Shown: positions 29,816 through 36,738 of the stretch, piece by piece
How the letters are laid out: every line of letters begins with the position of its first letter
How positions within the stretch are numbered: position 1 is the first letter of the stretch
NCBI GenBank assembly: GCA_012517195.1
Contig: JAAYVK010000074.1
Location: forward strand, 1 to 39,005
Direction: 5' to 3'
DNA: 39,005 bases
Source: Synergistaceae bacterium
GTDB lineage: Bacteria; Synergistota; Synergistia; Synergistales; 79-D21
The notes under the pieces: generated by a model
The model's database searches: none
What the model was told of the DNA's origin: nothing
What the model saw: only the letters and a program-made list of their open reading frames with translations
Made by a program: the position numbers and the translations under genes

Positions 29816-29839
29816 GAAGCTTGGAATCCGGATGAAGGC

Positions 29840-29960
29840 CGCAAGAGAGACCCCGAGATCCTGGGGCGCCGAAGGGGCAAAAGCGAGAGACGCTGCGCTT
29901 GAAACTCTCAGGCTTAAGGATTGCGGCTGGACGGGACTCTGGAGTGGGCGCGAGCCTGCC
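29840..29960 (+). ncRNA. glycine riboswitch, singlet aptamer with downstream ghost-like hairpin
   Basis: AGAGACC...GCGCCGAAGGGGCAA...GAAACTCTCAGGCTTAAGGATTGCGGCTGGACGGGACTCTGGAG matches the conserved core of the gcvT/glycine element; followed by GGGC-GCGA-GCCT GNRA hairpin. Confidence 0.9.
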
Positions 29961-30000
29961 GACAGGGAAGAGGTCATGCATGGCTGATCCCGTTGTCGAA

Positions 30001-30020
30001 CCTTCTTTCCGAAAGGGAGG
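30001..30020 (+). promoter_or_regulatory. SD-sequestering hairpin (riboswitch expression platform)
   Basis: CCTTCTTT-CCGA-AAGGGAGG; 8 bp including G-U; 3' arm contains the grdX Shine-Dalgarno. Confidence 0.6.
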
Positions 30021-30027
30021 AGCAGGC

Positions 30028-30438
30028 GTGCCTTATCTGGTCATTACGAACAACCCTATCCTTTCTTCCAATTTAAAAGAACTCTGAGTCCCGGTTTCCA
30101 GCGCCTGGGAGGTGCTGATTGTCGCCCGCGATCGTATCCACCAGGGCTACCGACTGCTCACTCATCCACTTTACGGGAACTTTCTTCCGAACCAGCAGCC
30201 TTTCAGAACAATTCTCCTTTCCGCTCCCGGGGGAACCCCGGAAATAGACCCCGATTCTCTTTACCTGATCGAGGAAGCTCTCGGTGTCTTTCGAAAATAT
30301 GAAGGCCGATGGGCGATTCCCGGGCAACTCCCTCATGCTGTGGAAGAGGACTACGCGGTGATCGATTTTGACCTGATGCGGGAAAGTCTCCGGCAATATG
30401 GTTTTTGCTTCTCGATCGACGCGTATTGCGGTTTTTGA
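30028..30438 (+). CDS. grdX: GrdX family protein with in-frame UGA at codon 20 (candidate selenoprotein or disrupted gene)
   Basis: VPYLVITNNPILSSNLKEL-[UGA]-VPVSSAWEVLIVARDRIHQGYRLLTHPL...; both sides of the UGA look like GrdX in one continuous frame. Confidence 0.75.
30085..30117 (+). promoter_or_regulatory. candidate Sec UGA and bacterial SECIS in grdX
   Basis: TGA + 11 nt + CAGCGCC-TGGGA-GGTGCTG (7-bp stem with one G-U, G in second loop position). Confidence 0.5.
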
Positions 30439-30479: not shown

Positions 30480-30800
30480 ATGGTGGAACTGGATAAGGAC
30501 AATTTTGAGGTTCAGGTCCTTCAAAGCGAACTGCCGGTTGTGGTAGACCTGTGGGGTCCAAAATGCGGCCCCTGCCTGGCTCTGTTGCCCCAGGTCGAAG
30601 AACTGGCCAGGGAGTTCGAGGGGAAGGTGCGGTTCTGCAAGCTGAACGTTGCGGAAAACAGAAGGCTGGTCATCTCCTTGAAGGTCATGGGAGTCCCGAC
30701 GTTCCTCTTTTACAAGGGCGGCGAGCTGAAAGACCGTCTAAGCGGAGGGGACGTGACGATTGACGGGATCCGCCAGAAAACCGAGGCGCTTCTCGCCTAG
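30480..30800 (+). CDS. trxA: thioredoxin (glycine reductase-associated)
   Basis: VVVDLWGPKCGPCLALLPQVEELA; VMGVPTFLFYKGG. Confidence 0.93.
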   Translation: MVELDKDNFEVQVLQSELPVVVDLWGPKCGPCLALLPQVEELAREFEGKVRFCKLNVAENRRLVISLKVMGVPTFLFYKGGELKDRLSGGDVTIDGIRQKTEALLA

Positions 30801-30830: not shown

Positions 30831-32117
30831 GTGAAGCTTGAACTTCACAAGATGCAAATCAAGAGTATGGCCTGGGGAGCAAAGACCGGGGTGAAGGACG
30901 GTGTCCTGTCCGTCTGCAAAGAAGATGTCCTCTCACTGGTCAAGACGGATCCGAATTTCCTGAAGGTTGAAGTCGATCTAGCCCTGCCGGGGGATAAGAC
31001 GAGGATAATCCCGGTAAAGGATGTTGTTGAACCCCGCTGCAAGCTCGAGGGAAAAAACGGGATTTTCCCCGGAATGATTTCTGACGTGGAAACGGTGGGC
31101 TACGGAAAAACCCTGGTGCTGGAAGGGGCAGCAGTCGTGACTTGCGGGAAGGTCGTCGGGTTCCAGGAAGGGATCATCGATATGTCGGGACCGGCGGCGG
31201 ACTATACCCCGTTTGCACACACCTGCAACCTGGTCCTGGTCGTGGATCCGGTTGAAGGGCTGGAGCGGCACGATTATGAGGCTTCCCTCCGGATCGCCGG
31301 GCTGAAGGTTGCCGAATTTCTGGCGAAATCGGCGGCCGGGATGCCCGCGGACTCGGTCGAAGCCTATGAGGCGAAGCCTTTGAAAGAGGCGATGACCGAT
31401 TATCCTGGGCTGCCGAAGGTGGCATATCTCTACATGCTGCAATCCCAAGGGCTTCTCCACGACACCTATGTTTACGGGGTCGACGCGAAAAAAATCCTGC
31501 CTACCCTGATCAATTTCACGGAAGTGTTTGACGGGGCGATCGTTTCCGGGAACTGCGTTTCCGCCTGCGATAAAAACAGCACCTACTACCATCTCAACAA
31601 CCCGATCATCAAGGCAATGGCTGCTCGCCACGGCAAGGACTACAATTTCGTTGGAGTCATTATCACGAACGAAAACGTCACCCTGGCGGACAAGAAACGG
31701 AGTTCCTCCTATGCAGTGAAATTGGCCCAGACTCTAGGCGTGGATGGGCTACTCATCTCGGAAGAGGGCTTTGGGAACCCGGATGCCGACCTCATCATGA
31801 ATTGCAGGAAGGCTGAAAATGCGGGAATCCGTACAGTCCTGGTCACAGACGAATACGCAGGACGCGACGGCGCAAGCCAGTCCCTCGCAGATGCCGCGAA
31901 AGAGGCAGATGCCGTCGTCACGGCAGGGAATGCAAACGAGATCATCATCCTTCCGGCCATGGAGAAAGTCATCGGCTACCCGACCTACGCGGATGTGATC
32001 GCAGGAGGGTTCCAGGGATCCCTCCGTCAGGACGGCTCAATCGAAGTCGAACTCCAGGCGATTACAGGGGCTACGAGCGAACTTGGTTTTACGCGTATCA
32101 GCGCGATCACGATCTAG
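30831..32117 (+). CDS. grdE: glycine reductase complex component B, subunits alpha/beta (GrdE proprotein)
   Basis: MKLELHKMQIKSMAWG start; GNCVSACDKNSTYYHLNNPIIK around the pyruvoyl-forming Cys. Confidence 0.94.
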   Translation: MKLELHKMQIKSMAWGAKTGVKDGVLSVCKEDVLSLVKTDPNFLKVEVDLALPGDKTRIIPVKDVVEPRCKLEGKNGIFPGMISDVETVGYGKTLVLEGAAVVTCGKVVGFQEGIIDMSGPAADYTPFAHTCNLVLVVDPVEGLERHDYEASLRIAGLKVAEFLAKSAAGMPADSVEAYEAKPLKEAMTDYPGLPKVAYLYMLQSQGLLHDTYVYGVDAKKILPTLINFTEVFDGAIVSGNCVSACDKNSTYYHLNNPIIKAMAARHGKDYNFVGVIITNENVTLADKKRSSSYAVKLAQTLGVDGLLISEEGFGNPDADLIMNCRKAENAGIRTVLVTDEYAGRDGASQSLADAAKEADAVVTAGNANEIIILPAMEKVIGYPTYADVIAGGFQGSLRQDGSIEVELQAITGATSELGFTRISAITI

Positions 32118-32160: not shown

Positions 32161-32637
32161 ATGGGAAAGCTGGCTGGGAAGAAAGTCGTCCTGCTTGGCG
32201 AACGAGATGGTGTTCCAGGACCGGCAATGGAGGCCTGCCTGAAGAATTCCGGGGCCGACATCGTTTTTTCGGTGACAGAATGCTTCGTCTGAACCGCCGC
32301 CGGTGCCATGGACCTGCAGAATCAGCAGCGCGTCAAGGATGCTGCTGAGAAGTACGGATCGGAGAACGTGGTCGTTATCCTTGGATCCTCCGACGCAGAA
32401 GGCGCGGAGATCTATGCCGAAACGGTTACGAACGGCGATCCGACCTTTGCAGGCCCCCTGGCAGGAGTCCCGTTGGGACTCGCGGTTTATCATGTTTTCG
32501 AAGATGCAATTCGGCAGGAGGCTGATCCGGCACTCTGGGAAGAGCAGATCGGCATGATGGAGATGGTCCTGGATACCGAAGCACTCGCGAAAGCGGTTGC
32601 GGGCATGCGTGAACAATACAGTAAATATGCGATCTAG
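32161..32637 (+). CDS. grdA: glycine/sarcosine/betaine reductase selenoprotein A (Sec at UGA 32290-32292)
   Basis: [62 protein letters not shown]; track shows only the part after the UGA. Confidence 0.95.
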
Positions 32638-32665: not shown

Positions 32666-33973
32666 TTGTCCTACCGAATTGTACACTATATCAACCAGTT
32701 TTTTGCCGGGATCGGCGGCGAGGAGAAAGCGGATTACAAGCCGGAGGCCAGGGAAGGGGTCGTAGGACCCGGGCAGGCGCTCAACGCAGCTTTTAAAGGG
32801 CGAGCCGAGATTGTCGGCACGGTCATCTGCGGAGACAGCTACTTCGCGGAACACATGGCGGAAGCTTCTGCTGAAATTCTGGAAATGATCCGGAAATTCT
32901 CCCCGGACGCCGTGATTGCGGGACCCGCTTTCAACGCGGGGCGATACGGCACCGCCAGCGGTGCGGTCCTGGAGCTGGTCTCCAGGGAGCTCAAGATCCC
33001 TGTTGTCGGAGGGATGTACCCCGAAAACCCGGGAGTCGAGCTCTACCGCAAGAGCGCTTACATCGTCAGGACTTCGGACAGCGCCCGCGGGATGGGGCCT
33101 GCGGTTCAGGGAATGGCGGCGCTCGCACTAAAACTGCTTGACGGAGAGAAAATCGGGACTCCCGAAGAGGAAGGCTACATCGAGCGGGGCCTCAGGAAAA
33201 ACATCTTCCTGGACAAGGTCGGAGGCGAGCGGGCTGCTGAGATGCTCGCCAGGAAGCTTCGGGGAGAGCCTTTCAAGACAGAATACCCGATGCCGGTTTT
33301 TGACCGTGTGGCACCGAACCCCCCGATTCTGGACATGAAGAAGGCGGTGGTCGCCCTGGTGACCTCCGGGGGAATCGTGCCGAAGGGCAATCCAGACCAC
33401 ATTGAGGCCTCCAGCGCGACCCATTACGGGGAATATTCCCTGGAAGGCGTGCTGACGGCGGACGCGGACCACTATGAAACCGCCCACGGCGGATACGATC
33501 CGACCTACGCGAACAAGGACCCGAACCGCGTCCTTCCGGTTGATGTCTTGCGACAACTGGAGAAAGAGGGAGTCATCGGGAAGCTCCACGAGAAATACTA
33601 CTCGACGGTGGGCAACGGGACTTCTGTCGCGAACGCGAAGCGTTTTGGTGAAGAGATCGTCGGGAAACTCAAGAAGGATGGTGTCGATGCGGTCATCGTC
33701 ACATCCACCTGAGGAACCTGCACGCGTTGCGGTGCAACGCTCGTGAAGGAAATCGAAAGGGGCGGGATTCCGGTCGTACACGTCTGCACGATCGTACCGA
33801 TTTCCCAGACCGTCGGGGCGAACAGGATCGTGCCTGCCGTAGCGATCCCGCATCCGCTGGGGGATCCGACGCGAACTCACGAAGAGGAAGTCCAGATTCG
33901 CCGGAACCTTGTCCTGAAGGCCCTGAAAGCTCTGGGGACCGAGGTGCACGAACAGACGGTCTTTACCGATTGA
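32666..33973 (+). CDS. grdB: glycine reductase complex selenoprotein B (Sec at UGA 33710-33712)
   Basis: YRIVHYINQFFAGIGGEEKADY...DAVIVTST-U-GTCTRCGATLVKEIERGGIPVVHVCTIVPIS; split into two ORFs in the track. Confidence 0.95.
33710..33745 (+). promoter_or_regulatory. SECIS-like hairpin following the grdB Sec codon
   Basis: TGA + 8 nt + CACG-CGTTGC-GGT-GCAACG-CT-CGTG. Confidence 0.8.
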
Positions 33974-34036: not shown

Positions 34037-35569
34037 ATGAAAGTTGCGGTTAAAGGTACATCCTACTGTCTCAACCATGTTCCAGAAATGGCCTTTCACT
34101 ACGGGAACACACCCTACGTGGAGCGGAAAACCAGGGGAGAATCAGAATTCCTTAAAGAACTTACCTCCCACCTGCAGTCCTATGCCAAGGCAGCCGCTTA
34201 TGCACCGAACCTGGCCTACATCGGTGCGATGACTCTTGGTGAGCTCGAACGGCATCCCCAGCCCTGGCTTGAGAATCTTGCGGCTGAGCCGGTCCGGTTC
34301 GGACGTTTCGGAGAAATCATGCCGGAAGATGAATTCCTTGGGTTGATGGACATCAGCGATGTGTTCGACATCATCTGGCTCGAGGAAAGGTTCAGCGCTG
34401 CCGTTTCAGAAAAGCTGCGGAAGAACCCCGTGATCCCGGAAACGCTGCTGGGGCGCCTGGAAAAGGGTCACACCCTCCAGGAAATTGAGAGAGAAGTGTC
34501 GGAGAAAGACGCACTGCCGCTGTATTTTGAGGGAAAGGTCGTGGGTTGTTCGAGGAAAGGGCACGAAATCGATGAGTGCCTTGAAGCCTATGTCCTGCTT
34601 GAAAACGTTGCCTGCAAGGCGGGAGGTGTTCTTGCCCTCCTGCACCTTTTCCGGAATACAGGACTGAGGCCCGAGGAAGTTGATTTCGTGATCGAATGTT
34701 CCGAAGAAGCCGCCGGGGACATGAACCAGCGTGGAGGGGGCAACTTCGCAAAGGCGGTCGCCGAAATCGCCGGGTGCGTGAATGCGAGTGGATGCGATGT
34801 CCGCGGTTTCTGCGCCGGTCCCGTGAACGCGGTGATTGCTGCGGGGAGCCAGGTGGCTGCAGGTGCGAGGAAAAATTGCGTAGTCCTGGCTGGAGGGGCT
34901 GTCCCCAAGCTTTTCATGAATAGCCGGGACCATGTTAAAAAAGGACTGCCTGCCCTGGAGGATTGCCTTGGGAATTTTGCGATCCTGCTGGGAGAAGAGG
35001 ACGGAGTTTCCCCGGTGATCCGCCTTGATGCGCTCGGTAAGCACTCGGTCGGGGCCGGGGCGGCGCCGCAGGCGATCACCAGCGCGCTTGTCTGGGAACC
35101 GCTGCAGAAGCTCGGACTGGGGTTCAACGATGTGGACAAGTACGCGGCTGAGCTGCAGAATCCAGAGATTACCCTGCCGGCCGGGGCCGGGGATGTTCCG
35201 AACGCCAACTTCAAGATGATCGGGGCTCTCGCGGTTATGAAGGGGCAGCTTGAAAAGAGCCAGATCCCCGAATTTGTCCGCGAAAAGGGAATCCCGGGCT
35301 TTGTGCATACGCAGGGGCATATCCCGTCGGGAGTCCCCTTCGTTGGCCATGCCTGTGAGTGGATCAAGGCGGGAACGATTCGCAGGGCCCTTATCATCGG
35401 GAAAGGAAGCCTCTTCCTGGCTAGAATGACCAACCTGTCCGACGGTGCTTCCTTTTTCATCGAACCCCCAGAGGCGGTCAAGCCGGCGCAATCGGTTACC
35501 AAGGAAGACATCCAGCGGCTATTGCTGGAAGCTCTGTCAGAAGTCGCATCATCCCTGAAGGCGGAGTAG
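34037..35569 (+). CDS. grdC: glycine/sarcosine/betaine reductase component C subunit beta
   Basis: FabH/thiolase-like; follows grdB; VKGTSYCLNHVPEMAFHYGNTP...GNFAKAVAEIAGCVNASGCDVRGFCAGPVNAV. Confidence 0.93.
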   Translation: MKVAVKGTSYCLNHVPEMAFHYGNTPYVERKTRGESEFLKELTSHLQSYAKAAAYAPNLAYIGAMTLGELERHPQPWLENLAAEPVRFGRFGEIMPEDEFLGLMDISDVFDIIWLEERFSAAVSEKLRKNPVIPETLLGRLEKGHTLQEIEREVSEKDALPLYFEGKVVGCSRKGHEIDECLEAYVLLENVACKAGGVLALLHLFRNTGLRPEEVDFVIECSEEAAGDMNQRGGGNFAKAVAEIAGCVNASGCDVRGFCAGPVNAVIAAGSQVAAGARKNCVVLAGGAVPKLFMNSRDHVKKGLPALEDCLGNFAILLGEEDGVSPVIRLDALGKHSVGAGAAPQAITSALVWEPLQKLGLGFNDVDKYAAELQNPEITLPAGAGDVPNANFKMIGALAVMKGQLEKSQIPEFVREKGIPGFVHTQGHIPSGVPFVGHACEWIKAGTIRRALIIGKGSLFLARMTNLSDGASFFIEPPEAVKPAQSVTKEDIQRLLLEALSEVASSLKAE

Positions 35570-35580
35570 GGGGGATCCCC

Positions 35581-36738
35581 TTGTCGGAAATGAAGCGGAT
35601 GGTTGGTGAGATCCTCACCGAGATCGTCGAGCTGGCGAAGTCGGGAGCGCCGCGCAGGCGGATCGGTCTTATGGCCAGGGGGAGTGAGCTTGGGCCTGAA
35701 GAGATGGCAATGGGGGCCCGGCTTGCCCAGCGGGAAACCCCAGGTCTTGCGGTTGTCATGATTGGACCGAGAACACCCGGATATGACGACCTGGAATGGA
35801 TCGAAACGGAGGAAACGGACTGCGAGGCCCGTATTGCCGAGGCCATGGAGAAAGCCCTGAAGGAGAAGCGCATTGACGGCGCGGTTGCCCTGCACTATCC
35901 ATTCCCTCTCGGGGTTACCACCATTGGCCGTGTTGTGACCCCGGGCAAGGGCAGAGACATGCTCGTGGCTTCAACCACTGGCTCGAGTTCGTCCCATAGA
36001 ACCGAAGCGATGGTGTTGAATGCCGTTCTTGGTGTCGCGGTCGCAAAAGCCCTCGGCAAAGAGGACCCTACGGTCGGGATACTGAATGTCGAAGGAGCCC
36101 AGACTGTATTCAGGGCTCTGTCGCAGCTTCGGGAAAACGGTTATAAAGTGACCTACGGGGAAAGTGTCCGAAAGGACGGAGGGGCGATCCTAAGGGGGAA
36201 CGATCTTCTGGCCGGTGCCGTTGATGTCTGCGTGACGGACACCCTGACCGGGAACGTCCTGATGAAGCTTTTCTCTTCCTTCACGACGGGCGGAGCGTAT
36301 GAGTCGGCAGGGTGGGGATACGGTCCCTCCGTTGGCGAAGGATGGCCTCACGTGATTTCAATCATTTCCAGGGCCTCAGGAGCCCCGGTAATCGCCAGGG
36401 CCCTTGCCTTCACCGCGGCAGTGGCCGCTTCGAATCTTCCTTCCCTTGTTCAGAAGGAACTGAAATCCGCCAGGGAAGCCGGCCTGGAAACCGTGCTGCT
36501 TGGGATGAGAAAAAAGCCTCTTGCTGACGGGGAAAAAATCGAGCGCCCTGCCGCTGAACCGACGGATGAAGAGATTCACGGCATCGATGTTCTCAACATC
36601 GAGGAAGCGGTCCAGGAACTCTGGAAAGCGGGGATTTACGCGGAATCGGCCATGGGGTGCACCGGGCCGGTAATCAAAATTTCCGGGAAAAATCTGGAAA
36701 TGGCAGAAAACTGTCTAAAGCAGGCAGGATACCTTTAG
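35581..36738 (+). CDS. grdD: glycine/sarcosine/betaine reductase component C subunit alpha
   Basis: PlsX-like; DPTVGILNVEGAQTVFRALSQLRENGY; AMGCTGPVIKIS. Confidence 0.93.
   Translation: MSEMKRMVGEILTEIVELAKSGAPRRRIGLMARGSELGPEEMAMGARLAQRETPGLAVVMIGPRTPGYDDLEWIETEETDCEARIAEAMEKALKEKRIDGAVALHYPFPLGVTTIGRVVTPGKGRDMLVASTTGSSSSHRTEAMVLNAVLGVAVAKALGKEDPTVGILNVEGAQTVFRALSQLRENGYKVTYGESVRKDGGAILRGNDLLAGAVDVCVTDTLTGNVLMKLFSSFTTGGAYESAGWGYGPSVGEGWPHVISIISRASGAPVIARALAFTAAVAASNLPSLVQKELKSAREAGLETVLLGMRKKPLADGEKIERPAAEPTDEEIHGIDVLNIEEAVQELWKAGIYAESAMGCTGPVIKISGKNLEMAENCLKQAGYL

Follow-up and report, generated by a model that had tools for sequence, protein, structure and literature searches.

The closest described relatives of the locus analyzed here are the selenoproteins GrdA and GrdB of glycine reductase, in which selenocysteine (Sec) is catalytic and occupies one conserved column, and for grdB a family of SECIS elements exists in Rfam. 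The first gene of the grd operon encodes GrdX (family NF038093), whose other members are ordinary sense-codon genes. In E. coli, the selAB leader reportedly carries a SECIS-like element, a SelB-binding hairpin that controls expression, and this element is said to lack a Sec UGA and to respond to the level of the SelB complex. In leader-peptide attenuation and nonsense polarity, for example at the trp leader, the supply of charged tRNA sets the passage of ribosomes at an early point of an operon.

The grdX gene described below shares its operon and the Sec machinery with grdA and grdB, and its product matches NF038093 over the full length of the profile. Unlike the ordinary members of the family, it contains an in-frame UGA, which is followed by a hairpin built like the SECIS of grdB (7-bp stem, GGY triloop, loop at +18). 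It differs from GrdA and GrdB in that the predicted Sec column shifts by clade and that most GrdX homologues have neither Sec nor Cys. The likeness to the selAB leader would lie in a SelB-binding hairpin for expression control, whereas the UGA of grdX is predicted to be decoded within the gene; in contrast to trp-type attenuation, the codon tested would be a UGA/Sec codon that belongs to a functional gene, and any influence on transcription is conjectural in grdX. From sequence comparison, we predict that GrdX is very probably an unrecognized, lineage-restricted selenoprotein. According to the sequence-only reading, an earlier interpretation of this DNA, GrdX is not known to be listed among the selenoprotein families, and selenoproteome papers of 2016, 2022, and 2026 do not mention it. 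The retrieved literature passages naming GrdX, which came mostly from outside the subscription literature, contain no description of it as a selenoprotein, and it may have been mentioned as one elsewhere.

The grdX gene and its operon

The window, a stretch of 39,005 nucleotides, comes from a MAG-like genome of a Synergistaceae bacterium (1.23 Mb in 98 contigs, rated 94% complete), in which it is contig C94. Its grd operon runs in the order glycine riboswitch, grdX, thioredoxin, grdE, grdA, grdB, two component C genes, and symporter (Table 1). The GTG start, Shine-Dalgarno sequence, in-frame TGA, and terminal TGA of grdX are where the sequence-only reading had placed them, and grdA and grdB carry the Sec codons that it had expected. 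Its further claim, that both sides of the UGA are GrdX-like without a gap, is borne out by the NF038093 profile, which aligns at positions 2-118 of 119 and is unbroken at the UGA; the score of the read-through protein (108.3 bits against a curated NCBIfam cut-off of 40) places it in the GrdX family. Thus, grdX has the in-frame UGA with gap-free homology on both sides by which bacterial selenoproteins are recognized. The read-through orthologues of the window GrdX are 82-64% identical to it, and an in-frame GTG 3' of the UGA opens an ORF of 108 aa.

At its C-terminus (30406-30438), the window GrdX has an 11-residue extension with two Cys residues; its closest relative (G001, locus L071) has a TGA stop where the window has TGC.

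Table 1. Features of the grd operon in the window
Feature	Positions	Strand	Basis or detail
Glycine riboswitch aptamer (RF00504), 5' of grdX	29832-29933	+	Rfam gathering match, 69.5 bits
Shine-Dalgarno of grdX, GGGAGGAG	30015-30022	+	Sequence
grdX, 136 codons, GTG start, in-frame UGA as codon 20, TGA stop	30028-30438	+	NF038093, 108.3 bits
Candidate Sec codon UGA of grdX	30085-30087	+	Kept in 4/4 same-genus orthologues
Candidate SECIS hairpin of grdX	30099-30117	+	Stem 30099-30106/30110-30117, loop GGG 30107-30109; bSECIS model, codon shuffle, synonymous freeze, strict scan
Thioredoxin gene	30480-30800	+	PF00085, 77.7 bits
grdE/grdG-type component B subunit	30831-32117	+	PF09338, 679 bits
grdA	32161-32637	+	Sec UGA at 32290 (CFVUTAAGAMD)
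grdB	32666-33973	+	Sec UGA at 33710 (TSTUGTCTRC)
grdB SECIS, GCGUUGC-GGU-GCAACGC, loop 18 nt past UGA	33713-33750	+	RF01990 SECIS_4
Component C beta subunit gene (grdC)	34037-35569	+	NF040746, 736.8 bits
Component C alpha subunit gene (grdD)	35581-36738	+	NF040747, 550.6 bits

Recurrence of the UGA in Synergistota

Searches for GrdX in Synergistota at the levels of order and phylum, covering 183 and 188 genomes, gave a match in about 125 genomes, 13 of which have a UGA within the N-terminal segment of the operon GrdX. These are all four genomes with an orthologue in the window's genus (f1; G000-G003), three of genus g12 in family f5 (G017, G039, and G181), and six of family f10 (G029, G041, G046, G054, G182, and G036), and two of the 13 are single-contig. 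The UGA falls at alignment column 27 in f1, 28 in g12, and 10 in f10, at approximately codons 15-22 of about 135 in all three groups. An alignment of relatives had been proposed as a check by the sequence-only reading, and the close relatives of the window retain both the UGA and the hairpin. The Synergistota searches found no TAA or TAG interrupting the body of a confident GrdX, flags for these codons lying mainly at match ends, and no internal UGA was present among about 145 GrdX genes of Bacillota (391 and 399 genomes sampled). A search of genome contigs with the window protein returned only close relatives and Merdimonas.

The glycine riboswitch directly precedes grdX in 12 of the 13 UGA-bearing genomes, the locus of G182 lying at a contig edge. 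SelB scored over the cut-off in all 13 (366.7 bits in G000) and tRNA-Sec was detected in 12 (74 bits in G000), the exception being again G182, an 80% complete bin with none above the cut-off; a Rho gene is present in 10. The TNN motif 5' of the UGA is kept in 13/13 members, and dN/dS 3' of the UGA is about 0.14-0.35 for the pairs with defined dS (e.g., dN 0.074 vs dS 0.52, and 0.09 vs 0.635).

The codon preceding the UGA is a Leu codon (CTC/CTT) in 13/13 members (30082-30087 with the UGA in the window) despite the different UGA columns. Several genomes, including G002, G036, and G046, also contain GrdX-like paralogues, one or two each, that lack a UGA. In-frame TGAs in GrdC homologues of G005 and G014 proved to be normal stops at the match edge.

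Hairpins 3' of the grdX UGAs

In the bSECIS model, a bacterial SECIS has a loop of 3-9 nt with a G in its first two positions, a stem of 4-16 bp, a spacing of 16-37 nt, and an energy of -7.5 or lower, and a loop core G[GU]N inside the closing pair is the majority pattern (PMC13188914). The hairpin that the sequence-only reading had drawn at 30099-30117 is real, while its pairing had to be redrawn as an 8-bp stem, CAGCGCCU / GGG / AGGUGCUG, with the loop at +19 nt from the UGA; with -11.0 kcal/mol it fits the bacterial SECIS pattern, as had been claimed. Twelve of the 13 members are similar, and the hairpin of G182 is weakened by one broken stem pair. The three groups have hairpins of 8-9 bp with a G[GU]N triloop, whose sequences are unrelated to one another: CAGYGCCU-GGG-AGGUGCUG in f1 (loop at +19), GCGGGGAG-GUN-CUCCUCGC in g12 (+21), and RCCACCUUC-GUU-GAGGGUGGY in f10 (+24).

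When synonymous codons were shuffled, a SECIS-like hairpin as good as the best one present was rarely obtained for the window (p=0.002), f1 (p=0.002-0.004), g12 (p=0.023-0.031), and five f10 members (p=0.003-0.010), compared with p=0.006 for the grdB SECIS used as a control and p=0.16 for G182. None of the 61 sense-codon GrdX genes has a hairpin of -11 kcal/mol or lower at the positions found in the UGA clades. At codons with a constant amino acid, synonymous variation was seen at 4/19 within the hairpins vs 142/181 elsewhere (Fisher p=0.0009, 0.016, and 0.003; combined 8e-6), and the four variable hairpin codons comprise a C-G to U-G change in f1, a change in the loop in g12, a G-U/G-C exchange in f10, and the broken pair of G182. 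A strict scan with the published loop pattern covered 5279 TGAs from the two strands of ten loci, and the 20 that passed include 8/8 of the grdX UGAs present and two known grdB Sec codons; the background was about 0.2% of the other TGAs, and about 1-2% under looser rules. The Rfam SECIS families, including SECIS_4, gave no match to the grdX hairpin (E<=5, 30000-30300), while grdB matched RF01990. Folding energy of the 48 nt 3' of the UGA was a poor discriminator (p=0.44 for the window and only 0.07 for the true grdB element), and the simple hairpin score failed on grdA (p=0.32), whose SECIS differs in shape.

The GrdX tree requires three changes of the TGA label, likewise across bootstrap trees, and the UGA-bearing members again fall in three separate clades of the GrdC tree. 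In AU tests, the UGA-bearing genes as one clade were not formally rejected (p-AU 0.32 for GrdX and 0.09 for GrdC). Because the UGAs occupy different columns and the hairpins are unrelated, repeated gain accounts for the grdX UGA better than a single origin.

Decoding and role of the grdX UGA

Taken as a whole, a Sec-recoded UGA with a selenium checkpoint role in grdX is the best explanation, and we hold it with good confidence. SelB, held by the hairpin, would bring Sec-tRNA to UGA codon 20 and thereby allow full-length GrdX to be made, and without selenium the ribosome would halt after 19 residues. This recoding step is very likely, with Sec as the presumed residue. Decoding by a near-cognate tRNA, or with UGA reassigned to Trp, would give a product of identical length, and homologues tolerate many residues at the site; however, TGA is the usual stop here, including that of grdX itself, the codon is never replaced by TAA or TAG, and SECIS-type hairpins under synonymous selection follow the UGAs in genomes with Sec machinery, so that we consider such read-through very improbable. 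A decaying pseudogene or a sequencing error with a hairpin arising by chance might be suspected from the MAG-like source with its 98 contigs and from the 108-aa ORF past the UGA. Nevertheless, the UGA is found in 13 independent genomes, two of them single-contig, in ORFs that are otherwise intact, with TNN kept and dN well under dS, which excludes error and decay to the point that their probability is negligible; moreover, a truly decayed GrdX copy (G150) looks different, with six mixed stops. If instead the UGA closed a short leader peptide and GrdX restarted 3' of it by coupled reinitiation, the GTG located nine codons past the UGA in f1 and preceded by GGGAG could serve as the start. This SD-like GGGAG, however, touches the GTG with zero spacing inside the hairpin, most f10 members lack an early in-frame start (the first at codon +51, +31, and +101), and the TNN strand, a conserved element of GrdX, lies in the part before the UGA, all of which make reinitiation highly improbable.

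A conventional selenoprotein, in which Sec took the place of Cys within a redox-active loop and has a chemical function, would have the recoding step in common with the checkpoint explanation. We judge it unlikely, and it retains the weight it has because Cys is about twofold commoner in the UGA-bearing segment than elsewhere (29/909 vs 92/6701, p=2e-4), being present somewhere in this segment in 23 of the 61 sense GrdX genes. In addition, among the neighbours of the f10 clade, seven genes carry a Cys at precisely the column of the f10 UGA, and thioredoxin and selenoenzymes are encoded together with GrdX. On the other hand, Cys at the UGA column was found in none of the 61 homologues for f1, the group of the window, and in one for g12, against these seven for f10, and in most GrdX genes the UGA columns hold a residue other than Cys or Sec; the alignment of Sec to a conserved Cys, by which a catalytic Sec is usually recognized and which is not needed for Sec decoding, is thus not seen in grdX. 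No CxxU/UxxC motif or conserved partner Cys was found in the 13 UGA members. The grdX UGA of the window lies in a hypervariable segment that separates the TNN motif from the first long helix. In an AlphaFold model (pLDDT 73) the window site is the start of strand 2 while the f10 site, by alignment, is in helix 1; judging from this model, the Sec sites of f1 and f10 are not one active site. A fold search with this moderate model gave no PDB relative (E >= 0.2), and a search for a PDB sequence relative of GrdX found none.

Since the UGA recurs at different columns and most homologues have residues other than Cys there, a checkpoint is favoured over catalysis, and Sec in GrdX would probably have no catalytic duty. 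The sequence-only reading had offered a Sec protein or a selenium checkpoint; the UGA and hairpin kept in relatives support this, and the shifting columns and non-Cys homologues tip it towards the checkpoint. Because the UGAs are early and grdX is first after the riboswitch, the first gene of the selenoenzyme operon would be left unfinished without Sec-tRNA. With the glycine riboswitch and the UGA acting on the same first cistron, both glycine and selenium would be required for GrdX, and we give about an even chance that the UGA gates expression as such a checkpoint rather than serving as a catalytic residue. Nonsense polarity over about 350 untranslated nt could in addition make full expression of grdA and grdB depend on glycine plus selenium; this effect on the downstream selenoenzyme genes, which the early UGA, its place in the first cistron, and the presence of Rho in 10 of the 13 genomes would allow, is rather unlikely, and the rut-like C-over-G content 3' of the UGA did not differ from that of other grdX genes. 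A broader proposal is that a Sec codon without catalytic function, accompanied by a SECIS of its own, arose several times among bacteria at the head of selenoenzyme operons, where it senses selenium; decoding of the grdX UGA would report the supply of Sec-tRNA and form an AND gate with the glycine riboswitch for glycine reductase expression. This proposal is tentative, and its probability in our estimate falls somewhat short of even.

Selenoprotein searches commonly seek catalytic Sec/Cys pairs, and a Sec at a non-catalytic, non-conserved position would therefore be missed. The Synergistota selenoproteome would gain a protein family with GrdX. If the checkpoint explanation is true, selenocysteine would serve as a regulatory nutrient test in bacteria, and the long-unexplained grdX would become testable.

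In the f10 clade (loci L065 and L081-L085), a terminator-like hairpin, CCACCTATTC-NNN-GAATAGGGGG-TTTTT, overlaps the Shine-Dalgarno sequence of grdX just 3' of the glycine riboswitch, and is possibly the expression platform of this riboswitch.
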